Assembly (NCBI GenBank): GCA_938034415.1
Contig: CALHLE010000021.1
Location: 1 to 56,092, forward strand
Source: an uncultured Anaerolineae bacterium
GTDB lineage: Bacteria > Chloroflexota > Anaerolineae > J036 > Brachytrichaceae
Direction of reading: 5' to 3'
Length of the DNA stretch: 56,092 nucleotides
The notes under the pieces were generated by a model. That model made no database searches. It saw only the letters and a program-made list of their open reading frames with translations, and had not been told where the DNA came from. A program made the translations under genes and the position numbers. Numbering within the stretch: position 1 is the first letter of the stretch; each line of letters opens with the position of its first letter. Shown here one piece after another: positions 5,433 through 50,564 of the stretch.

Positions 5433-7577
5433 ATGCTTTCGATCCTCGACGGCCTGAATCCGCAGCAGCGCAGGGCGGTTGAAGCGCCGGACGGGCCGAC
5501 GCTCATCCTGGCCGGGCCCGGCAGCGGCAAGACGCGCGTGTTGACCAGCCGAGTGGCCTACCTCATCAGCGCGCGGAACGTCTACCCGCATCGCATTATG
5601 GCCGTGACGTTCACCAACAGGGCCGCGCGCGAGATGCGCGACCGGTTGACCCGCATGGCCGGCGCGGACCGGACTGCTGACCTCATGCTCGGCACCTTTC
5701 ACAGCATCTGCGCGCGCCTGCTGCGACGCGAGGCGCCGCAGGCCGGCCTCGATCGCGACTTCACCATTTACGACAGCGACGACCAGATCAACGTGGTGAA
5801 GGCGGCGCTGGTCGAGCTGAACCTGGACGAGAAGAAATACAAGCCTGCGTCCATCCACGCCGCCATCAGCGCGGCTAAGAATGAGCTGGTGACGCCGGAG
5901 CGCTACAAGCCGGACTCCTACTTTGGCGAGATTGTCGGTCGCGTCTATGTGCGCTACAACGCTATTCTGCGCGCCAACAACGCGCTGGATTTCGACGATC
6001 TGCTAATGGAAGCCGTGTTGTTGTTGCAACGCGACGCGACCGTTCGCGCGAAGGTGCAGGAGCGCTACCTGCACGTGTTGGTGGATGAGTTTCAGGATAC
6101 CAACATCGCGCAATACGAGCTGATCAAGTTGATCGCCGGCAAGCATCGCAGCGTGTTCTGCGTGGGCGATGCGGATCAGAGCATTTACACCTGGCGCGGC
6201 GCCGACCATCGCAACGTGCTGCGCCTGCGCGAGGATTACCCCGACCTCAATGTCATCGCGCTGGAACAGAACTACCGCTCGACGCAGACTATCCTGGATG
6301 CGGCCATGGCGGTGATCAAGAAGAACCCGAACCGCCTGCACATCAACTTGTTCACGCAGCGAGGCTACGGGCCGAAGATCGCCGTGCGCGAGATGTTCAA
6401 TGAAGATGAAGAGGCGCAGTATGTGGTGGACACCATCGCCGAGCTGGTGCGTCTCAAGGCGGCTGAGCCGGGCGAGATCGCGGTGATGTACCGCACCAAT
6501 GCGCAGTCGCGCGCCATCGAAGATGCCTTCGTGCGCGCCGGCATGCCCTATCGCCTGGTCGGCGCGACGCGCTTCTATGCGCGCAAAGAGATTAAAGACG
6601 TGCTGGCGTATTTGCGCATTGTGAATAACCCATCGGACTGGGTAAGCCTCAAGCGAATCATGAACGTCCCCCCGCGTGGCATTGGCGATAAGACCTTCGC
6701 GCAACTGGAAGCAGCCTCTCGCGCTGCCGGCCTGACGTGCCTGGACGTCATCCAGCAAGGGAACTGGCCGGGCCGTGGCGCGCGCGCGCTCGGGGAATTC
6801 GGCGCGCTGTGGGCGCAGTGGGTGCGTCTGCGCAACGAGCTGAGCGTCGGCCAGTTGTTCGACCACATCATCCAGACCAGCGGTTATAAGGACTACCTAA
6901 AAGATGGGACAGAGGAGGGCGAGGACCGTTGGGCCAACGTGATGGAGCTGCGCAACGTGGCTGCCGAAGCCGGCGAAGCGCCGCTGAGCGAGTTCCTCAA
7001 CGACATCGCCCTGGTGAGCGATGTGGATAACTACGACGAGAACGCGAATGCCCCCACGCTGCTGACGCTCCACGCGGCCAAGGGCCTGGAGTTCAAGGTG
7101 GTGTTCATCGTCGGCTTGGTGGAAGGGGTGCTGCCGCACAGCCGCAACATGGACACTCCTGAACAGTTGGCCGAGGAGCGTCGGCTGCTATACGTCGGCA
7201 TCACGCGGGCGAAAGAGCGCCTGTACTTGCTGCGGCCTTTTCGCCGCTCGCAGTGGGGCGCGAGCGATATCGCCGAGCCGTCGCGCTTCCTCGCCGACCT
7301 GCCCGATGAAGTGGTGGACGGCAAGCCGCGCGCGAATAGCGAGATTCTGCGCGATTCGACGACGTGGCGCAGCGATAAGCCGCCGGAGCCGCGCGCGACG
7401 CTCGCCGACACGCAATTCAAGCCAGGCGACCGCGTGGTGCATCCGCGCTTTGGGGATGGCTTGGTTCTGCGCAGCACCCGCGTGCGCGACGATGAAGAGG
7501 TGGAGGTGTTCTTCGAGCATGCCGGCGGCAAGCGGCTTTCGGCAGCGCTGAGCGGGCTGAAGAAGCGGCGCACCTGA
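5433..7577 (+). CDS. pcrA: ATP-dependent DNA helicase, PcrA/UvrD family
   Basis: The 714-residue product has every superfamily 1A motif in order: GPGSGKTRVL (motif I), AVTFTNRAAREM (Ia), LVDEFQDTN (II), GDADQSIYTWRGAD (III), QNYRST (IV), TLHAAKGLEFKVVF (V) and RRLLYVGITRAKERLYLL (VI). The C-terminus carries the Tudor-like extension of PcrA/UvrD (FKPGDRVVHPRFGDG), which binds RNA polymerase or other partners. It should act as a 3'-5' helicase in excision repair and in removing RecA or stalled polymerase. The sequence just before ATG 5433 is an inverted repeat (5416-5430) containing a -10-like GAAAAT, so the transcript may be leaderless. uvrC and a photolyase also lie in this window but not in the same operon. 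Confidence 0.95.
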   Translation: MLSILDGLNPQQRRAVEAPDGPTLILAGPGSGKTRVLTSRVAYLISARNVYPHRIMAVTFTNRAAREMRDRLTRMAGADRTADLMLGTFHSICARLLRREAPQAGLDRDFTIYDSDDQINVVKAALVELNLDEKKYKPASIHAAISAAKNELVTPERYKPDSYFGEIVGRVYVRYNAILRANNALDFDDLLMEAVLLLQRDATVRAKVQERYLHVLVDEFQDTNIAQYELIKLIAGKHRSVFCVGDADQSIYTWRGADHRNVLRLREDYPDLNVIALEQNYRSTQTILDAAMAVIKKNPNRLHINLFTQRGYGPKIAVREMFNEDEEAQYVVDTIAELVRLKAAEPGEIAVMYRTNAQSRAIEDAFVRAGMPYRLVGATRFYARKEIKDVLAYLRIVNNPSDWVSLKRIMNVPPRGIGDKTFAQLEAASRAAGLTCLDVIQQGNWPGRGARALGEFGALWAQWVRLRNELSVGQLFDHIIQTSGYKDYLKDGTEEGEDRWANVMELRNVAAEAGEAPLSEFLNDIALVSDVDNYDENANAPTLLTLHAAKGLEFKVVFIVGLVEGVLPHSRNMDTPEQLAEERRLLYVGITRAKERLYLLRPFRRSQWGASDIAEPSRFLADLPDEVVDGKPRANSEILRDSTTWRSDKPPEPRATLADTQFKPGDRVVHPRFGDGLVLRSTRVRDDEEVEVFFEHAGGKRLSAALSGLKKRRT

Positions 7578-7703: not shown

Positions 7704-10457
7704 ATGACCACGACACATCATGCGCCGATGGCGCAAACTCCCACCGGAAAGGTCATCACCTCCATTGAGGCGCTACAACGCGAACGCGAGTCGTTCGACG
7801 CGTTGTTCAAGCCCAGGACGATTGCCGTGATCGGCGCGACGGACAAAGCCGGCAGCGTCGGCCTGGCGATCATGCAGAACTTGAAGACCTTTCGCGGCCC
7901 GGTCTTCCCCGTCAATCCCAAACGCGACGCAGTGCTCGACTTGCCGGCCTACCCTCACATTGCCGCCGTGCCGGCGAAGGTGGATTTAGCCGTGATCGTC
8001 ACGCCGGCGCCGACGGTGCCCGGCATCATCGGCGAGTGCATCGCCGCCGGTGTGAAGTCGGCGTTGATCATCTCGGCCGGCTTCAAGGAGGTCGGCCCAC
8101 AAGGCGCAGCGCTGGAGCAGCAAATCCTCGCCCAGGCGCGCGAGGCGCGCATGCGCATCGTCGGCCCGAACTGCCTGGGCATCATGAACACCAGCATTGG
8201 CCTCAATGCCACTTTCGCCGACGCCATCGCCAACCCCGGCAACGTGGCCTTCATTAGCCAGAGCGGCGCGTTGTGCACCGCCGTGCTCGATTGGAGCTTC
8301 CGCGAGAAGGTCGGCTTTAGCTACTTCATCTCGGTGGGTTCGATGCTGGATGTGGGATGGGGCGACTTGATCGATTATCTGGGCGATGACCCCAACACCG
8401 ACAGCATCGTGATGTATATGGAGACGATCGGCGATGCGCGCTCGTTCATCTCGGCCGCGCGTGAGGTGGCGCTGAACAAGCCGATCATCGTCATCAAGGC
8501 CGGGCGCACGGCAGCGGCAGCGCAAGCGGCTGCATCGCATACCGGCTCGCTGGCCGGCAGCGACGACGCGCTCGACGCTGCATTCCGACGCTGCGGCGTG
8601 CTGCGCGTGAACACCATCGCCGACCTTTTCTACATGGCCGAGGTGTTGGCCAAGCAGCCGCGCCCCAAAGGCCCGCGATTGACCGTGGTGACGAACGCCG
8701 GCGGCCCTGGCGTGTTGACGACCGACGCCCTGGTGCAGAACGGCGGTGAGCTGGCGCCGCTCTCGCCGGAGACGATGGAGAAGCTAAACGCCCTACTGCC
8801 GCCGCACTGGAGCCATAATAACCCGATTGACGTTCTGGGTGACGCTACGCCCGAACGCTATGCGAAGACGCTTGAAATTGCCGCCGCCGATCCGAACAGC
8901 GATGGCCTGCTGGTTATCCTTACCCCGCAAGCGATGACCGATTCGACGGCGACAGCAGAATTGCTGCGCCCGTATGCGCGGCTGCGCGGCAAGCCGGTGC
9001 TGGCGAGCTGGATGGGCGGCGATACCGTCGAGCCTGGCGAACGCATCTTAAACGAGGCCGGCATTCCCACATTCGGCTACCCCGATACGGCTGCCCGCAT
9101 GTTTACCTACATGTGGCGCTACAGCGACAACCTGCGCGCGCTCTACGAGACGCCCGTGCCGGGCGATGATCGGGCCATACATCGCGACGAAGCAGCGGCG
9201 ATCATCGCGCAGGTGCGCGCAGCCGGGCGGACGCTGCTGACCGAGTATGAGTCCAAACGGCTGCTGGCCGCATACGGCATCCCCACCGTGCCGACGTTCA
9301 TCGCCGAAAGCGAAGACCAGGCCGTCGAGCAAGCCGAGCGCATCGGCTATCCGGTCGTGCTCAAGCTACACTCGGAGACGGTGACGCACAAGACCGATGT
9401 CGGCGGCGTGCATTTGAACCTATGCAGCGCATCCGATGTGCGGGATGCCTACCGGCTGATCAAGGCGTCGGTGTCGGCGCGGGCCAGAGTGTCCGACTTT
9501 CTCGGCGTGACCGTGCAGCCGATGATCAAACTGGACGGCTACGAGCTGATCCTCGGCAGCACCACCGACGTTCAGCTTGGGCCGGTGCTGCTGTTCGGCG
9601 CCGGCGGCCAGTTGGTGGAGGTGTTCAAGGATCGCGCGCTCGGTTTGCCACCGCTGAACACCACGCTGGCGCGGCGCATGATGGAGCAGACGAAGATCTA
9701 CACCGCGCTGCAAGGTGTGCGCGGGCGCAGGCCGGTGCCTTTGGACGAGCTGGAGCAATTGATGGTGCGCTTCAGCTACCTGGCGGCGGAGCAGTTGTGG
9801 ATCAAAGAGATTGACCTCAACCCGTTGTTGGCCTCGGAAGAGCGCCTGATTGCGCTGGACGCGCGCGTGGTGCTGCATGATCCGCGACTGACCGAGTCTG
9901 AGCTGCCACGCACGGCGATCAAACCCTATCCGGTGCAGTATGTCGGGTCGTGGGCGTTGCGCGACGGCACGCCGGTGACGATCCGGCCGATCCGCCCGGA
10001 GGACGAGCCGCTGCTGGTCGAATTCCACCATACGCTTTCGGAGCAGACCGTCTATCAGCGCTACTTCCACTTGATCCCGCTGAGCGAGCGGATCGCCCAT
10101 GAGCGGCTGACGCGCATCGCGTTTGTCAGCTATGAGCGCGAGATGGCGCTGGTGGCGGAGGTGCGCGACGCGGCGCTGAAACCGCACATCATCGGCGTGG
10201 GGCGCTTGATCAAGCTGCGCGGCGGCGAGGAGGCCGAGTTCGCGATCCTGATCAGCGATGAGTATCAACATCACGGACTGGGCCGCGAGTTGCTTCGCCG
10301 GCTGGTGGAGATCGGCCGACAGGAGGGCGTGAAGCGCATTGTGGCCGAGATTTTGCCGGACAACATCGGCATGATTCGCGTGAGCGAGCAGGTGGGTTTC
10401 ACGTGCAAGTATCACCCCGACGAAGGCGTGGTGAAAGCGGAGCTGCTGCTGGTCTAG
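7704..10457 (+). CDS. NDP-forming acyl-CoA ligase fused to a GNAT acetyltransferase (Pat/PatZ-like)
   Basis: The 917-residue protein has the architecture of bacterial protein lysine acetyltransferase Pat: a CoA-binding Rossmann domain ([18 protein letters not shown] near residue 40), two ligase domains, an ATP-grasp domain (about 490-730) and a C-terminal GNAT domain (about 760-917). The ligase segment [17 protein letters not shown] keeps a histidine, H279, where ADP-forming acetyl-CoA synthetases carry their phosphohistidine. As I recall, enteric Pat proteins have lost that residue. The protein could therefore make or use acyl-CoA as well as acetylate proteins. The GNAT part has [18 protein letters not shown], the acetyl-CoA loop. 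A GGGGAG at 7685-7690 serves as ribosome site for ATG 7704. It appears monocistronic. Confidence 0.85.
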
Positions 10458-16912: not shown

Positions 16913-17566
16913 CTACTCGGCTCTTAGCGCCGCTTTTGCCGCGATGATGAATGCGCGCACTTTTGCGTGATCTTTTTTGCCGGGCTGCGCCTCGACGCCG
17001 CTGGCGACATCTACGCCCCAGGGCCGAATCATGCGAATCGCGTCGGCCACGTTGTCGGGCGTAAGGCCGCCGGCGAGCAACAGCCGGCAGCGCCGAGCCA
17101 GATCCATCGCTAATGATGCGTCGGCGCGCTGACCGGTGCCGCCGTAGCGCGTGGGGTGGTGGGCATCGAGTAAGAGGTCGGGCAGAAAGCCATCCGCGGC
17201 GCGCGCCGGGATAAACGCGGCGCTATCGGCGTCCCACACGCGAACAGCCTTATACGCGCGGCGACCGATCGCGGCGAGATCGGCGGGCGATTCATCCCCG
17301 CTGAGTTGCGCGTAGTCCAGGCCGGCGACGTCCATCATCTGTGATATGTGGGCCGGCGCTTCATTGACGAACACGCCCACGTATCGCGCGCGCGGCGCCT
17401 GTGGCGCGCGCGCCCGGATGTCGGCGATGAGCGCGCGCGCCTGGTCAAGCGTCACCGCGCGCGGACTCTTGGGGTAGAAGATGAAGCCGAGCAAGTCTGC
17501 GCCCGATTCAATCGCGCACAGCGCGTCGTCCAGATTGGTGATGCCGCAGATTTTGACGACCGTCAT
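16913..17566 (-). CDS. trpF: Phosphoribosylanthranilate isomerase
   Basis: The 217-residue TIM barrel fits TrpF, which converts phosphoribosylanthranilate to an anthranilate ribulose phosphate in tryptophan synthesis. Family features are VKICGIT at the N-terminus with the catalytic Cys, LGFIFYPKSPRAV, the Asp near LLDAHHPTRYGGTGQ, LLAGGLTPDNV and GVDVASGVEAQPGKKD at the C-terminus. Length is usual. No other trp gene lies in the window. The start is 61 bases from that of uvrC, which is divergent. A TATAGT box ends 8 bases before ATG 17566, so the mRNA should be leaderless. Confidence 0.93.
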   Translation of the reverse strand: MTVVKICGITNLDDALCAIESGADLLGFIFYPKSPRAVTLDQARALIADIRARAPQAPRARYVGVFVNEAPAHISQMMDVAGLDYAQLSGDESPADLAAIGRRAYKAVRVWDADSAAFIPARAADGFLPDLLLDAHHPTRYGGTGQRADASLAMDLARRCRLLLAGGLTPDNVADAIRMIRPWGVDVASGVEAQPGKKDHAKVRAFIIAAKAALRAE

Positions 17567-17574
17567 CTCCGGCG

Positions 17575-17580
17575 ACTATA
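17575..17580 (-). promoter_or_regulatory. -10 box TATAGT, leaderless trpF
   Basis: TATAGT on the minus strand ends 8 bases before the trpF ATG. Confidence 0.6.
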
Positions 17581-17613
17581 GCGCAAGGGCCGGGGGCGCC
17601 GGCCGGCGATGGC

Positions 17614-17619
17614 TAAAAT
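17614..17619 (+). promoter_or_regulatory. -10 box TAAAAT, leaderless uvrC
   Basis: TAAAAT ends 8 bases before ATG 17628. It is divergent from the trpF -10 box with 33 bases between them. Confidence 0.6.
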
Positions 17620-17627
17620 TTGCGCGT

Positions 17628-19553
17628 ATGCCTGTGCCTGAGCATCTGGAGGCGACCGTCAGGAATCTGCCGACGTTGCCGGGCTGCTATCTTTTCTACG
17701 ACAGCCGGGGCGAGGTTATCTACGTCGGCAAGGCAGTGAACCTGCGCAGCCGCGTGCGATCCTATTTCAACCCCAACACATGGGCCGCTCATCCGAAGAC
17801 TGGCCGAATGGTCAAAGAGATCGCGCGCATCGAGTTCGTCGTGCGCGGCAGTGAGCTGGAGGCGCTGATCCAGGAAGCCGAGCTGATCAAGAAGCATCGC
17901 CCACGCTACAACATCCGCCTGAAGGATGACAAGCGCTATCCGTATCTCAAGGTGACTTGGCAAGATGACTTCCCGACCGTTACGGTCACGCGGCGGATCG
18001 AGCGCGATGGGGCGCGCTATTACGGTCCGTATTCCAGCGCCAAAGCGGTGTATGCCACGCGCGACGCGCTGCGCAAGATGTTCCCCTTCCTTAACTGTGA
18101 TCGCGTGATCACCGGCCATGACACACGCGCCTGCATGTATTACGACATCAAGCTGTGCAGCGGCCCATGCATCGGCGCCATCAGCCGGGCCGAATACCGC
18201 GCCAACATTCAGCGCCTGTGCGACTTCCTCGAAGGTAAGAGCGAGCAAGTGATCGCCGACGTGCGCGCGCGTATGGAACGCGCAGCCAGCGCTTATCAGT
18301 TTGAGAGGGCAGCCGAATACCGCGATCAGCTCAAAGCGCTGGAGCACGTGGTCGAGAAGCAGCGCGTCGTCAGCAGCGCCGGCACCGATCAGGATGTGAT
18401 CGCCTTTGCGCGCGACGAAGGCGAGACCTGCGTGCAGGTGCTCTTCATTCGCGGCGGCAAGCTGCTGGGCCAGGAATACTTCGTGCTCGACGGCGCGGAA
18501 GGCGAAGATGATCAGAGCGTGCTCGACGCGTTCATCAAGCGCTTCTACGACGAGGCGGCTTACGTGCCGCCGGAGGTGCTGTTGCCGACGCTAGTCGAAG
18601 AGGCTAACATCATCGAAAACTGGTTGAAGCAAAAGCGCGGCGCGGCAGTGAAGATTCGCGCCCCGCAGGCCGGCGCCGACGCCAGCTTAGTCGAGCTGGC
18701 GCGGCAGAATGCCCAGGAGCAGCTTGCGACGTTGAAGGCGCAATGGCGCGAGGACAGCGTGCGCCAGGAAGCGGTGTTAAAGGAGCTGCAGGAAGCGCTC
18801 GACTTGCCTCGCTTGCCGGTGCGCATCGAGTGCTATGACATCAGCAACACCCAGGGCGCGGCCATCGTCGGCAGCATGGTGGTGTTCGTTCATGGCGTGC
18901 CGAAGAAGAGCGACTATCGCCGCTTTAACATCCGGGACATCGCCGGCCCGAACGACTTTGAGAGCCTGCGGCAGATGCTGCGACGGCGGTTCCAGCGGTG
19001 GAAGGACGCTCACGGCGGGAAACCAGAGCAAGGGGATATGGCGCAGCAGCAGGATGGACGGTCTCGCATTCCCACAGCCTCGCCATCCCTCAGTCTGAAG
19101 AGAGGGAACGATATGAGCTGGGCCTTGCTGCCCGACCTGATCATCATTGACGGCGGCAAAGGTCAGCTCAGCGTCGCGGTCGAAGTGCTGCGTGAGTTCG
19201 ACCTAGCCCACATCGTGCCTGTCGTATCGCTGGCCAAGCAGAAGGAGGAAATCTTCCTGCCGGGCAGGGCAGACTCGATCTTGTTGCCGCGCAACGCCCA
19301 GAGCTTCTTCCTCGTGCAGCGCATCCGCGACGAGGCGCATCGCTACGGAATCACCGGCCATCGTCGGCAGCGCGAGAAGATCGGCCTGGCCTCGCAGCTC
19401 GACGCGCTGGCGGGTGTCGGACCGGCGCGCCGCAAGAAGCTGCTCACAACTTTTGGCTCGATCGAGGGCATTCGCGCCGCGAGCATGGAGGAGTTGGCCA
19501 AAGTGGTGCCGCGGCCCGTGGCCGAGGCGATCAAAGACGGGCTGGGCAGCTAA
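17628..19553 (+). CDS. uvrC: Excinuclease ABC subunit C
   Basis: The 641-residue protein is the dual-incision nuclease of nucleotide excision repair. The N-terminal GIY-YIG domain (GCYLFYDSRGEVIYVGKA) makes the 3' cut. A UVR motif for UvrB contact is around residues 205-240 (YQFERAAEYRDQLKAL). The RNase H-like domain for the 5' cut has IECYDISNTQGAAIVGSMV and LIIIDGGKGQL. Two helix-hairpin-helix motifs end the protein (LAGVGPARRKKLL). Between the two halves of the RNase H domain lies a Gln/Ser/Pro-rich linker of roughly 45 residues, which is long and looks poorly conserved. ATG 17628 is chosen because a TAAAAT -10 box ends 8 bases before it and the next residues align with the family start. 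Confidence 0.95.
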   Translation: MPVPEHLEATVRNLPTLPGCYLFYDSRGEVIYVGKAVNLRSRVRSYFNPNTWAAHPKTGRMVKEIARIEFVVRGSELEALIQEAELIKKHRPRYNIRLKDDKRYPYLKVTWQDDFPTVTVTRRIERDGARYYGPYSSAKAVYATRDALRKMFPFLNCDRVITGHDTRACMYYDIKLCSGPCIGAISRAEYRANIQRLCDFLEGKSEQVIADVRARMERAASAYQFERAAEYRDQLKALEHVVEKQRVVSSAGTDQDVIAFARDEGETCVQVLFIRGGKLLGQEYFVLDGAEGEDDQSVLDAFIKRFYDEAAYVPPEVLLPTLVEEANIIENWLKQKRGAAVKIRAPQAGADASLVELARQNAQEQLATLKAQWREDSVRQEAVLKELQEALDLPRLPVRIECYDISNTQGAAIVGSMVVFVHGVPKKSDYRRFNIRDIAGPNDFESLRQMLRRRFQRWKDAHGGKPEQGDMAQQQDGRSRIPTASPSLSLKRGNDMSWALLPDLIIIDGGKGQLSVAVEVLREFDLAHIVPVVSLAKQKEEIFLPGRADSILLPRNAQSFFLVQRIRDEAHRYGITGHRRQREKIGLASQLDALAGVGPARRKKLLTTFGSIEGIRAASMEELAKVVPRPVAEAIKDGLGS

Positions 19554-24319: not shown

Positions 24320-26479
24320 ATGAGCAAACATTACCTCGTCGGTCATCCGGGCGTCGGCAAAACGGCGCGGCTGACCGATCGGCTCATCGAGCTGCTCGGC
24401 AGCGGTGTTCGCCCGGATCGCATCCTCATCCTTGTCCCTCAGGAATCTCACGTCGGGCGTTTTAAGGCTGCGTTGGCCCTCGCGCGCGATGCGGCAGCGG
24501 CATCGCGCGAAGGGCGCAAGGCGCGGCGCGCGCGCCTCTCTGAGCCGGAGATCCACACGTTCTTTGGGTTGGCCCAGCAGCACGTGAGCTTGTTCTTCCC
24601 GCGCATTGCGCTGCGCGCCGGCTTCGCCGATCCCCACCGCGAGCCGGTCTGGGTGAACGTCGAGGCGGCGCAGTATCTCCTCGATCGCATCGTCGCGCCC
24701 CGCATCGGCGAGTTTGAGCACCTGCGCATGCCGCGCAGCCGTCTGCTCATCCAAATCCTGGACGATCTCAACCGCGCTGCGACGACAGGCTTCCCGCTGG
24801 AGGAGCTGGCCGATCGGCTGGCGTCGGCCTGGCACGGCGCCGAGCCGCGTGAGCAGACCTATCGCGCCGTGCAGGACATCGCGCTCGCCTTTCGCCGGTT
24901 TTGCCTGCGCCATACGCTGGTGGACTTTTCGCTCGGCATGGAGCTATTCAGAGCGCATCTGTTGGCCGCCGACTTCTACCGCGAGTACGTCGCGGCGCGT
25001 TATCGCCATGTGCTGGCCGACAACATCGAAGAAGGCGCGCCGATCGTCCATGATTTCCTGCGGCTGCTCCTGGAGACGTCCGAAACCGCGATGCTCGCCG
25101 AAGACGCCCCGGGCGGTTTCCGGGTTAACCTGGGCGCGGCGCCTCGGTCGGCGCGTTCGCTCCAGTCGGCATGTGAAGTGACGCCGATACCCGATCCGCG
25201 GCTGCAACCGGACGCGCCGGATTCGCCGGCTCGCTTCGGCCAGGCGCTCATGCGCGCGATCAACGAGCGCGCACCGCGCCTCGCGCTACGCAGTTCGGCT
25301 GTTGAGAAACTGTACGACGGCGCGGCGCCGGCGCGCTACTGGGCAACTATGGTGCAGGCCGTGGCCGATCACATCGGCGCGCTCGTGCGCTCCGGTGTGG
25401 CGGCGCGCGAAATCGCCGTCGTGGCGCCGGTGGTGGAGGATGTGCTGTGGTTCGAGTTGGAAGAGCGCTTGAGGCGTTACGGCGTCGGCGTGCACGCCGT
25501 GCGTCCCTCCCGGCCGCTGCATGACCAGCCGCTCGTCCGCGCCTTAGTCACCTTCGCGCGGTTGGGACATCCCAAATGGGCGCAGCCGGTTTCGACATCG
25601 GAGTTGGCGCGCGCCCTGGCGTTGGTGATATCCGGGTTGGATGTGGTGCGGGCGCAGCTTATCGCCGACGCCGCGCGCCGCGCGTGTGGACCCGGCGGCA
25701 TCGTCGCCCTGCCACTGCTTGCTGAGCCGATCCTCTGGGATCGCGTGGGCAAGCCGTTTCACGAGCGCTACACCGCGCTGCGAGACTGGCTGGCTGCGTG
25801 GGCCGGCGGGCGCCAGGCCCAGGATGCGCCTCTCGACCTGTTCTGGCGAGAGCTGACCGCCGGGCCGATGTCCCAGCCGGGCTTTGTGCTCGGCGATGAT
25901 CCGGAGGCTAGGGGGGTGTGCGACAAGCTGATCGCCTCGGCGCGCGCCTTCCGCGAAGTGTTCGAGCAGGCCGACCTCGCGTCGCAGCCGATCGGCGAAT
26001 CGTCTCAGCCGCCGGAGCTCTCGGTGTTGGGTCTGTCGCCCAGGCCGGAGGTGGCCGAGCGGGTGGAGGCGGGTCAAGCCTACGTCGTCGCGCTCATGCA
26101 GAACGTCCTGGCCGCCGAATACGCTCCTGAGCGGACGCCGGATGTATCCGAAGGCAGCATCCTGCTGGCGCCGGTTTACACGTATCTCACCGATAACTAT
26201 CGCTCGCGCTATCAATTCTGGCTCAACGTCAACGCCTTGAATTGGCACGAACGCTTCTACCAGCCGCTCACCCATCCCTACGTCCTGTCGCGCGAATGGT
26301 CGCCGGGCATGCGCTGGACCGACGACGACGAGCAGCGCGCCAGCCGCGACCTGCTGGCGCGCGTGGTGGGTGGGTTGGCGTTTCGCTGTCGCGACAAGAT
26401 CTACCTGGCGGCCAGCGGGCTGACCATGGCCGGACAGGAAGAGAGCGGCATGCTCGCCCAGGCGCTGCGAGGCTTATGA
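24320..26479 (+). CDS. Inactivated superfamily 1 helicase-like subunit (AddB-like, no nuclease)
   Basis: The 719-residue protein keeps the outline of a UvrD/RecB-type helicase. Walker A is intact (GHPGVGKT, residues 8-15), followed by a strand like motif Ia (ILILVPQESH). Where Walker B should read DExQ it has D234-N235-I-E-E, so the catalytic Glu is missing. The last 100 residues mimic motifs V and VI (QRASRDLLARVVGGLAFRCRDKIYL) but lack the motif V TxHxxKG and the arginine finger pattern TRAK. It ends right after this block, so it has no PD-(D/E)XK nuclease and no iron-sulfur cysteines. Its stop overlaps the start of the active helicase by ATGA, which implies a complex. This resembles the inactive AddB of AddAB, without the nuclease. 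Confidence 0.75.
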   Translation: MSKHYLVGHPGVGKTARLTDRLIELLGSGVRPDRILILVPQESHVGRFKAALALARDAAAASREGRKARRARLSEPEIHTFFGLAQQHVSLFFPRIALRAGFADPHREPVWVNVEAAQYLLDRIVAPRIGEFEHLRMPRSRLLIQILDDLNRAATTGFPLEELADRLASAWHGAEPREQTYRAVQDIALAFRRFCLRHTLVDFSLGMELFRAHLLAADFYREYVAARYRHVLADNIEEGAPIVHDFLRLLLETSETAMLAEDAPGGFRVNLGAAPRSARSLQSACEVTPIPDPRLQPDAPDSPARFGQALMRAINERAPRLALRSSAVEKLYDGAAPARYWATMVQAVADHIGALVRSGVAAREIAVVAPVVEDVLWFELEERLRRYGVGVHAVRPSRPLHDQPLVRALVTFARLGHPKWAQPVSTSELARALALVISGLDVVRAQLIADAARRACGPGGIVALPLLAEPILWDRVGKPFHERYTALRDWLAAWAGGRQAQDAPLDLFWRELTAGPMSQPGFVLGDDPEARGVCDKLIASARAFREVFEQADLASQPIGESSQPPELSVLGLSPRPEVAERVEAGQAYVVALMQNVLAAEYAPERTPDVSEGSILLAPVYTYLTDNYRSRYQFWLNVNALNWHERFYQPLTHPYVLSREWSPGMRWTDDDEQRASRDLLARVVGGLAFRCRDKIYLAASGLTMAGQEESGMLAQALRGL

Positions 26480-28701
26480 ACCTGCGACCCCAGCAAGCGC
26501 GCATCGTTAACGAATACGCCGGCGGCAAGCTGGCCGTTTTGGCCGTGCCGGGCAGCGGCAAGACACACACGCTGGCTGCGCTGGCGGTGCGCCTGCTGGC
26601 GCGCGGGATGGTCGGCCCGGATGCCGAGGTGTTGGTGGTCACCTTCACTAACTCGGCGGTGGAGAACGTCCAGGCGCGCATTCGCTTGGCTTTGCGCGAC
26701 CTGGGCCTGAGCGATGGTGGCTTTCGCGTGTTCACCCTGCACAGCCTGGCCAACGCGATCGTGCGCGAACGCCCCGATCTCGCCGGCGTGACCTCCGACT
26801 ATCGCATTGACGATGAGCTGAGCAACAGCCGCGCGATGGCCGAAGCTGCGCGCTGGTTCATGCAACAAGAACGCGACTACTGGCTCAGCTTTCTGCCCTC
26901 TGATCTGACGCCGCAACAGCGCTGCCGCCTGGAGAGCGCATGGTCCGATGACACAGTGCGCCTCGGCGCGGAAGTGACCAAGCTGGCCAAACACCTGCGG
27001 TTGACGCCGGCGGATGTGCGCGCGCTAATTGCGGAGCGCGAAGACCAAGCGCAGGAGCTGATGGCTATATCGCCGTTCCTGCGCATTGGCGCGGCGATCT
27101 ACGAGCGCTACGACCAGATGCTGCGCGCCGGCGGCCGGCTGGATTTCGATGACCTGATCTGGGCGGCCATTCGCGCTCTGAACAACGACGACGACTTTCG
27201 CCGCCGGCTGGGCCGGCGCTGGCCGTTCATTCTGGAGGATGAGGCGCAGGACAGCACGCCACTGCAAGAAGAGATCCTCGCGCTGCTCTCGCGCGAGCAT
27301 GGCAACTGGGTGCGCGTCGGCGATCCCAATCAGGCCATCATGACCACGTTCACGGCGTCGGACGCGCGCTTCTTCCGCGCATTCAAGGAGCGTCCCGATG
27401 TGCGGGCGATGCCGTTGACGGTGAGCGGCCGCAGCGCGCCGGAGATCATCGCCCTGGCAAACCGACTGGTGGATTGGGCGACCCGCGCGCATCCGGAGCC
27501 GGATGTGCGGCGCGCGGCGCTGAGCGCCGATGGGATCATTCAACCCGCGCCGCCCGACGATCCTCAGCCGAATCCACCGGCGGGGCGCATTCGGCTGCAG
27601 CCCTTCGATGATGAAGATGCCGAGGCGCAGAAAGTAGCCCAGAGCGCCGTTCGGTTTGTCCTGGACGCGCCCGATCGCACCTGCGCCATCCTTTCGCCGA
27701 CCCACTACTTTGGCCAGCGCATCGTGCAGGCGCTGGAAGAGATACAAGCGCGCTACCCGCAGCGCAAGCTGTATCAGGATCAACTGCGCAATCCACAACC
27801 GGTGCGCGACGTGGCGCGCGTATTGGCCCAGGCCGTGCGCTTTTGCAGCCAGCCCACGAATATGAACGCGCTGGTGGACTTGCGCACGGCGATGATCGAG
27901 GCCGGCGTTGGGCCGACCGGCGATGCGCGCGACCATCGCGTGAAAGCGCTGCTGCGAAGCGCGCGGCCTGAGCGACTGCTCTTCCCGCTATCCGATGCGG
28001 CGCCGGCTTTGCCGCCCGGCCTTGCCCTGCGCGAAGATGAGGCGCGCGAGGTCTATGCGCTGGCGGCGCTCACCGCGCGCTGGTTGCGGGCCAGCGTGCT
28101 GCCGGTGGATCAGCTCATCCTCGCCATCGCTCAGCAGCTCTTCGCGCGGGAGAACGACCTGGCAATCGCGCACAGCTTGGCGTCGAGCCTGCGCCGTTAT
28201 ATGGCGCTCCACCCCGATGCGCACTTGGCCGATGTCGCGCGCGAGCTAGACGAGATCGCCAGCAATCGCCAGCGATACCTCAGCAGCTCGCTCATCGAGG
28301 CCGGATTCCAGCCCGTGGCCGGTCAGATCACCGTCACGACCATGCACAAAGCCAAAGGGTTGGAATGGGATCGCGTGTATCTCACCTGCGTGGACGAGGT
28401 CGAGTTCCCGCACGATGCGTCGGGCGAGTTTCGCGGGCAGGCCTGGTATCTTGCTGGGCACGATCCGGCCCTGGAGGCGCGCATCCAACTAGAGGCGCTT
28501 GCCGGCGGCGCGGCGAGTTGGACCGCCGCCGACCTGGTGCGACGAGAGCGCATCGAGTATGTCGCGGAGCGGCTGCGTTTGCTGTATGTCGGCATCACGC
28601 GGGCGCGGGCCGATCTGTTCATCAGCTATAGCCGTCGGCGCATGGAGCGAGATAATAGCATCGCATTGGCTATGCGCGAGGTGTTGCGTCATGCTGGGTA
28701 A
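26476..28701 (+). CDS. UvrD-like superfamily 1 DNA helicase, partner of the upstream subunit
   Basis: The 741-residue protein has a full set of SF1A motifs: AVPGSGKTHT (K29), VVTFTNSAVENVQ, ILEDEAQD (D255, E256), VGDPNQAIMTTFTASD, a motif IV region around LTVSGRSAPEIIAL, TTMHKAKGLEWDRVYL and LRLLYVGITRARADLFI. It ends about 25 residues after motif VI, so there is no nuclease domain as in AddA or RecB. Motif III lacks the Trp-Arg pair seen in PcrA at 5433 (IYTWRG), which sets it apart from that subfamily. ATG 26476 overlaps the TGA of the previous gene. The two proteins probably form a heterodimer with one motor, for repair, recombination or replication restart. Confidence 0.88.
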   Translation: MNLRPQQARIVNEYAGGKLAVLAVPGSGKTHTLAALAVRLLARGMVGPDAEVLVVTFTNSAVENVQARIRLALRDLGLSDGGFRVFTLHSLANAIVRERPDLAGVTSDYRIDDELSNSRAMAEAARWFMQQERDYWLSFLPSDLTPQQRCRLESAWSDDTVRLGAEVTKLAKHLRLTPADVRALIAEREDQAQELMAISPFLRIGAAIYERYDQMLRAGGRLDFDDLIWAAIRALNNDDDFRRRLGRRWPFILEDEAQDSTPLQEEILALLSREHGNWVRVGDPNQAIMTTFTASDARFFRAFKERPDVRAMPLTVSGRSAPEIIALANRLVDWATRAHPEPDVRRAALSADGIIQPAPPDDPQPNPPAGRIRLQPFDDEDAEAQKVAQSAVRFVLDAPDRTCAILSPTHYFGQRIVQALEEIQARYPQRKLYQDQLRNPQPVRDVARVLAQAVRFCSQPTNMNALVDLRTAMIEAGVGPTGDARDHRVKALLRSARPERLLFPLSDAAPALPPGLALREDEAREVYALAALTARWLRASVLPVDQLILAIAQQLFARENDLAIAHSLASSLRRYMALHPDAHLADVARELDEIASNRQRYLSSSLIEAGFQPVAGQITVTTMHKAKGLEWDRVYLTCVDEVEFPHDASGEFRGQAWYLAGHDPALEARIQLEALAGGAASWTAADLVRRERIEYVAERLRLLYVGITRARADLFISYSRRRMERDNSIALAMREVLRHAG

Positions 28702-49079: not shown

Positions 49080-50547
49080 ATGCCGATCATTCACTGGTTC
49101 CGCCGCGATCTGCGGCTGGCCGACAACACCGCGCTGAACGCTGCCGCGCGCGACGGTGAGGGCGCGGTCATCCCCACCTTCGTGCTGGACGACAACCTGC
49201 TGAAGGGCCGCGACGTCGCGCCGGTGCGCGTGCAATTCATGCTGGAGAGTCTGCGCGCGTTGGATGACGGGCTACGCCGGCGCGGCGCGCGACTGGTTGT
49301 GTTGCGCGGCGATCCGGCGACCGAGCTGGTTCGGCTGGCCCAGGCCACCGGCGCATCAGCCGTGTATTTCAACCGAGATTACACGCCGGCCGCCCGTCGG
49401 CGCGACAAGCGCGTGGCCGCAGCGCTGCAATCGGCCGGCGTGCGCGTCGAATCCTTCAAGGACTTGGTGATCTTCGAGGAGGACGAGCTGCTGACCGCCT
49501 CTGGCCAGCCCTACACCGTGTTCACCCCCTACAAGAAAGCCTGGCTTTCGCGCATCACGCCGATCCGGCCGGAGCACGGAGAATGGCGATTAGCACCACT
49601 CCCTGACCTCCCCGCCGATGTCTTCTATATCCCTTCCGCCGCCGAACTTGGCTTCACCAACACGCAAGACGGCCCCAAGGGCGGCGAGCCAGAAGCTATG
49701 CGCCTGCTGACGCAGTTCAAGGACAGCGGCGCGTTGCAGGCATATTCGACTCGGCGCGACTTCCCCGGCGTGGAGGGCACGTCGCGGTTGTCGCCGCATC
49801 TGCGCTTTGGGACGATCTCGCCGCGCCAGTGCTACGCCGTCGCCGTCTCGACGCTCAGCTATGCCTTTCCGGCCAAACGCAGCTTCTCGCCGGCGGCCAG
49901 CGATGCGAAGAAGGAAGGCGCGGATGCGTGGATCAGCGAGTTAATCTGGCGCGAGTTCTACATGCAAATCCTGTATCACTTCCCGTATGCCGACCGCGCC
50001 AACTTCAACCGCGCCTACGACGTCGTGCGCTGGGGCAGCGGCGATGCTGCGCTGGACGAGGCGCGCTTCGCCGCATGGTGCGAAGGGCGCACCGGATACC
50101 CGATCGTGGACGCGGCAATGCGCCAGCTCAACCAGACCGGCTGGATGCACAATCGCACCCGCATGATCGTCGCGTCTTTCCTGACCAAGGATCTGTTATT
50201 GGATTGGCGCCTGGGCGAGCGCTACTTCATGCGCAAGCTGGCGGATGGCGACCCGGCGTCCAACAACGGCGGCTGGCAGTGGGCCGCCAGCACCGGCACC
50301 GACGCTCAACCGTACTTCCGCATCTTCAATCCCAAACTGCAAAGCGAACGCTTTGACCCCGACGGCACATACATCAAGCGCTGGCTGCCGGAGCTGGCGC
50401 GCGTGCCGGTGGAATACATCCACGAGCCGGCGTCCATGCCGCCGCTGATGCAGGCGCAGGTCGGCTGCATCATCGGCCGGGACTACCCTGCGCCGATCGT
50501 GGATCACGCCGAGCAGAAGGAAGAGATCCTGCGCCGCTTCAAGGCGG

Positions 50548-50564
<17 letters not shown>
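49080..50564 (+). CDS. phrB: Deoxyribodipyrimidine photolyase
   Basis: The 494-residue flavoprotein repairs cyclobutane pyrimidine dimers with blue light. The N-terminal antenna domain opens with [17 protein letters not shown]. The FAD domain has [54 protein letters not shown] and [18 protein letters not shown], and [21 protein letters not shown] shortened forms the flavin pocket. The pattern is that of class I CPD photolyases. ATG 49080 is supported by the close -10 box. The 3' end overlaps carB by 17 bases on the other strand. Light exposure in the habitat is implied. Confidence 0.93.

Follow-up and report, generated by a model that had tools for sequence, protein, structure and literature searches.

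Two overlapping SF1 helicase-family genes of Anaerolineae as probable parts of a split, AddAB-like helicase-nuclease

The window analysed here, a 56,092-nucleotide stretch of a contig from an uncultured Anaerolineae bacterium, carries on its forward strand two helicase-family genes, P1 and P2, preceded by a greA-like gene and followed by a nucleotidyltransferase gene. Their features are as follows.

24320-26479, + strand: P1, 719 aa, an inactive SF1 subunit resembling the AddB N terminus
24341-24364, + strand: P1 Walker A, GHPGVGKT (residues 8-15), with Lys14 invariant in 37 homologues
25019-25033, + strand: P1 degenerate motif II, DNIEE (residues 234-238), standing where DExQ is expected
26171-26416, + strand: P1 C-terminal conserved block that replaces motifs V/VI, PxYTYL ... 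W-x5-QPLTHPYVLSR ... GL-x2-RC
26476-26479, + strand: ATGA overlap of the P1 stop (TGA, 26477-26479) and the P2 start (ATG, 26476); a -4 overlap is found in most of the genus
26476-28701, + strand: P2, 741 aa from its ATG, an active-type SF1A (UvrD-type) motor
26551-26565, + strand: P2 motif I, GSGKT
27238-27252, + strand: P2 motif II, DEAQD, present in 27/27 homologues
28336-28359, + strand: P2 motif V, TTMHKAKG
28585-28608, + strand: P2 motif VI, YVGITRAR

The coordinates, strands and ATGA overlap agree with the original prediction made from this DNA, and translational coupling of P1 and P2 through the ATGA is likely. In some genomes the two genes are separated by an insert; the inserts are mutually unrelated (transposase-like, PIN-like or lipoprotein-like by eye) and thus give no indication of a fourth subunit. 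One genome (G007) holds a second, frame-broken P1-P2 copy (L073:735-4096) beside the intact one, or else a contaminating or poorly assembled contig. Elsewhere in the window lie ordinary repair genes that do not adjoin the pair, encoding UvrC (17481-19553) and a DNA photolyase (49080-50564), and a 917-aa fusion of an acyl-CoA synthetase (NDP-forming) type protein with a GNAT acetyltransferase domain (7704-10457).

The unusual motif content of P1 extends to its whole family. Lys14, Asp234, Glu237 and Glu238 are invariant in 37 homologues, Salinibacter included, at identities down to 34%, and the catalytic-Glu position (residue 235) is Asn in 35 of them and Gln in the other 2, giving a motif II equivalent of xDNxEE. 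Motifs V and VI are absent family-wide, and the C-terminal block has invariants of its own in the homologue alignment (W642, Q648, LT, P653 and C690). The original prediction had noted the retained Walker A, the DNIEE and the missing motifs, and their conservation across the 37 homologues marks these defects as a conserved family feature as opposed to damage. Because Walker A is kept while the other motor motifs are gone, the sequence suggests that P1 probably binds a nucleotide and is unlikely to act as a motor. The only Pfam match above cut-off is to the UvrD N-terminal domain (3e-6), NCBIfam holds no family for P1, and an AlphaFold2 model built from 4 sequences reached a pLDDT of 38. The window's genome belongs to the Candidatus Roseilinea group, with 89% identity over P1 to the nearest named record. 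An Ilyobacter protein with 20% identity was discarded as a relative of the system, being a generic UvrD-domain protein without the associated genes described below.

By contrast with P1, P2 has every helicase motif intact (GSGKT, DEAQDS, GDPNQ, TTMHKAKGLEW and YVGITRAR), as had been claimed, with the key residues conserved in 27/27 homologues. Pfam assigns it UvrD N- and C-terminal domains, and the protein ends about 20 aa beyond the UvrD_C match. Consistent with the earlier reading that neither protein bears a nuclease, Pfam detected no PDDEXK domain in P1 or P2, only UvrD-type/P-loop domains. P2 scores 93-132 bits against the pcrA, uvrD and rep family models and fails their cut-offs of 911-1168. 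In a tree that left out GajB, and in which long branches limit finer placement, it forms its own clade (support 100/99) beside PcrA/UvrD/Rep and AddA/RecB. The pair is also distinct, as predicted, from the gene at 5433, which encodes a separate, ordinary PcrA (TIGR01073, E=1e-234). Within the genus, P1 has a dN/dS of 0.13-0.19 and P2 one of 0.09-0.15, low values that indicate purifying selection and thus maintenance of both genes.

A PF12705 search of relatives uncovered a third gene, P3, which in many of them lies directly downstream of P2 and encodes a PDDEXK_1 protein of ~290-385 aa. The downstream PDDEXK_1 genes that we tested are all homologous (E<1e-29) to the nuclease of Salinibacter ruber M8 plasmid pSR56. 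P3 is typically a PD-(D/E)XK nuclease of ~300 aa in which four Fe-S cysteines are invariant. Its Cas4/AddB-type residue set is complete (C38, H74, D138, (D/E)WK, Q170, Y174 and C251-x2-C254-x5-C260), and across 23 sequences all of these residues vary little or not at all. P1-P2-P3 runs occur in many Anaerolineae, and in the genomes G212 and G441 the three genes are contiguous. Outside Chloroflexota, pSR56 carries a P1-P2-P3-recJ operon (L105:9947-17830), preceded by genes for an XRE-type regulator and for a small hypothetical protein, in which P1 is annotated as hypothetical and P2 as an ATP-dependent helicase. The trio of this plasmid has the accessions WP_013060222 to WP_013060224.

We surveyed 199 Anaerolineae genomes that are at least 95% complete. 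P1 and P2 were each present in 155, both in 153 and neither in 42, with 4 discordant genomes, so that about 79% of Anaerolineae genomes have P1 or P2; in a 300-genome sample of the phylum, P1 was limited to this class. P3 accompanies P1 or P2 in 143/157 genomes and appears in 1/42 genomes without them, there as a partial match. Fisher tests on these counts (p~4e-38 for P1 with P2, p~3e-29 for P3) ignore phylogeny and shared ancestry within the class, and the stronger argument is co-retention of the genes when they are unlinked: in three closed genomes (G428, G443 and G465) P1, P2 and P3 lie apart and all three are retained. The original prediction had proposed a pair that is nuclease-free by design, which the distribution of P3 does not support, and the linked, separate nuclease gene that would speak against such a design is largely in place, as roughly half of the relatives have P3 a short way behind P2 and 11/20 neighbourhoods across the class have it on the same stretch.

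We had expected P1P2 to replace AddAB, in line with the idea that the pair marks genomes lacking AddAB or RecBCD. AddB was found in 63/157 genomes that have the pair and in 15/42 that do not (Fisher p=0.72), which bears out neither. With no mutual exclusion, simple replacement is unlikely, and replacement offers no proof of a role at DNA breaks.

P3 was undetectable in 8/8 P1P2-positive genomes of the window's own genus, a single-contig genome included. Relaxing the threshold to E<=10 in five of these genomes yielded only two matches to Cas4-like ORFs, both short and confined to the Fe-S region, and neither in the window's genome. The gene thus goes undetected in the genus as a whole, and in 7 scattered genomes besides; the nuclease-less state of this genus appears real, but derived. 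One genome of the genus (G001) that seemed to have lost P1P2 was set aside as a probable assembly gap, the gene that normally adjoins the pair being missing too. Either the genus runs P1P2 without a nuclease, or an unrecognised nuclease took over. AddB was not detected in the window's genome, where the sole PDDEXK_1 match is a solo-Cas4-like 171-aa PD-(D/E)XK ORF on another contig (C58, L001:1339-1854). This ORF has an N-terminal hydrophobic, membrane-like segment, and similar ORFs occur in most relatives. We rejected it as the substitute nuclease, as solo Cas4 genes are found in genomes with and without the pair and show no tie to P1P2; the solo-Cas4 type has been described as common among Chloroflexi (PMC5704561). 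Another genome of the genus without P3 (G004) encodes a 951-aa UvrD-Cas4-type fusion helicase-nuclease (L177:1087-3939).

Taken together, these results make it probable that P1 and P2 belong to a DNA helicase-nuclease of three subunits and split, AddAB-like design, from which P3 was lost or replaced in the window's genus. The three-subunit system looks ancestral, and its role is probably DNA-end processing; complex formation, activity, polarity, strand specificity and a part in break repair are inferred in the model that follows. P2 would be the sole ATP-driven motor, moving 3' to 5' along one strand as an SF1A enzyme. P1, a helicase fold that keeps Walker A and lacks the motifs for hydrolysis and translocation, would probably serve as a clamp, strand separator or channel for scanning single-stranded DNA, a role modelled on AddB or RecC, whose N-terminal helicase domain is inactivated. 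Such inactivated domains in these two proteins are described as scanners, and the AddB nuclease as resecting the 5' strand (PMC4824097). P3, an AddB/Cas4-type Fe-S nuclease from a separate gene that usually lies nearby, would cut one of the unwound strands, the 5'-terminated one by analogy with AddB, and so leave RecA a 3' tail. P3 would have been lost in the window's genus, or swapped for a nuclease unrecognisable as P3, with P1P2 persisting as a helicase pair.

For this genus, a competing account is that P1P2 is now a truly nuclease-free helicase heterodimer, derived by nuclease loss and serving in fork restart, RecA-filament or R-loop handling, which is the machine originally predicted but as a derived state. 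In its favour are the uniform lack of detectable P3 while P1 and P2 remain under strong purifying selection, and a genome whose only PDDEXK_1 protein belongs to a type that pair-less genomes also carry; yet the profiles used would miss a nuclease that is unrelated in sequence or has diverged strongly, and several genus genomes, though not the window's own, have extra Cas4-like ORFs. On balance we consider it a real possibility that falls somewhat short of even. A role of the trio in anti-phage defence instead of housekeeping repair is improbable. In its favour, defence systems often contain helicase-nuclease pairs, P2 matches GajB models in a generic way, the Salinibacter trio is plasmid-borne, and UvrD-Cas4 fusions have been reported from defence-gene contexts (PMC5704561). 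However, the genes occur throughout most of the class and are fully co-retained when unlinked, the window offers a chromosomal housekeeping neighbourhood, no specific PADLOC family applies, and no P1 relatives were found in viral contigs or phages. Far less credible still is a reading of P1 as what is left of an ordinary AddB/UvrD paralogue and of P2 as one more accessory UvrD, their adjacency being incidental: the similarity of P1 to UvrD that suggests it is weak (E 1e-8), and it is at odds with the near-perfect co-occurrence even of unlinked genes, the P1-specific invariants and the purifying selection.

Should the three-subunit reading hold, the trio may tentatively be regarded as an undescribed class of DNA-end-processing machine with one motor, three subunits and a detachable nuclease, which most Anaerolineae would have in addition to AddAB or in its stead, and which would be reduced in one genus to a pair that works alone or with a borrowed nuclease. 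A search of the open-access literature found no prior description of the trio, which is weak evidence of novelty, and standard annotation names P1 and P2 'hypothetical protein' and 'ATP-dependent helicase'. In AddAB, AdnAB and RecBCD alike the nuclease is fused to a motor-fold chain, which makes it difficult to tell what motor, scanner and nuclease each contribute. A system that occurs naturally in three pieces, with a genus that has dropped the nuclease alone, would allow these parts to be tested apart and could represent an evolutionary intermediate. The trio is also a candidate break-resection enzyme for Anaerolineae, many of which have no detectable AddB.

Among known machines AddAB is the closest in design, pairing one SF1A motor with an inactivated helicase-like subunit and an AddB-type Fe-S nuclease. 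In profile comparisons, whose E-values are pairwise and do not come from a database search, P1 aligned with residues 22-606 of Anaerolineae AddB (hhalign 98.3%, E 2e-14, 522 columns) better than with P2 (5e-10) or AddA (8e-7), and gave no match to a single RecB sequence. P3 matched the C-terminal nuclease of AddB (E 1.6e-10) and not that of AddA, and P2 can be aligned with AddA over its whole length. As judged from sequence, P1 thus appears to share the inactivated SF1 fold of AddB. What AddB joins in one chain is, however, divided between P1 and P3; P2 lacks the C-terminal RecB-type nuclease fused to AddA and lies outside the AddA/RecB branch; and genuine AddBA operons coexist with the pair in 63 genomes. 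With both defining nuclease fusions absent, the system is AddAB-like in design but not a member of AddAB. In AddAB, Chi recognition involves an ionic latch between a conserved Glu in 1B and an Arg in 2A. In the alignment with AddB the Glu position corresponds to D/N149 of P1, and the alignment does not extend to the region of the latch Arg; lacking the latch Glu, P1 may lack Chi-type regulation.

RecBCD is likewise built of three subunits, one of them an inactive helicase fold, and has only one nuclease, but it has two motors (RecB and RecD) and its nuclease is fused to RecB, whereas here only P2 is motor-intact and no RecD-like gene was seen in the P1-P2-P3 operons. AdnAB supplies the best solved-structure match of the P3 profile, the AdnB nuclease region (E 4.5e-4), and P2 resembles AdnB (4e-28); AdnA and AdnB both bear nucleases, however, and P1 and P2 do not. 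The UvrD and Cas4-like operons and fusions covered in parts of PMC5704561, reported there mainly in Clostridiales, also set a UvrD-type motor beside a separate pfam12705 nuclease, and those parts describe no inactive partner of the P1 type. With Gabija GajB and with PcrA, UvrD and Rep, P2 shares the SF1A core. It differs from Gabija in that no GajA (OLD-like) gene was seen beside it, the neighbours being the greA-like and nucleotidyltransferase genes in the window and P1 or P3 elsewhere, and from PcrA, UvrD and Rep in its supported clade and sub-threshold family scores. Of the distinct machine originally proposed, a conserved one-motor pair with an inactive partner, neither PcrA nor genuine AddAB, still stands; in most of the class it now appears as part of a larger system that includes a nuclease.
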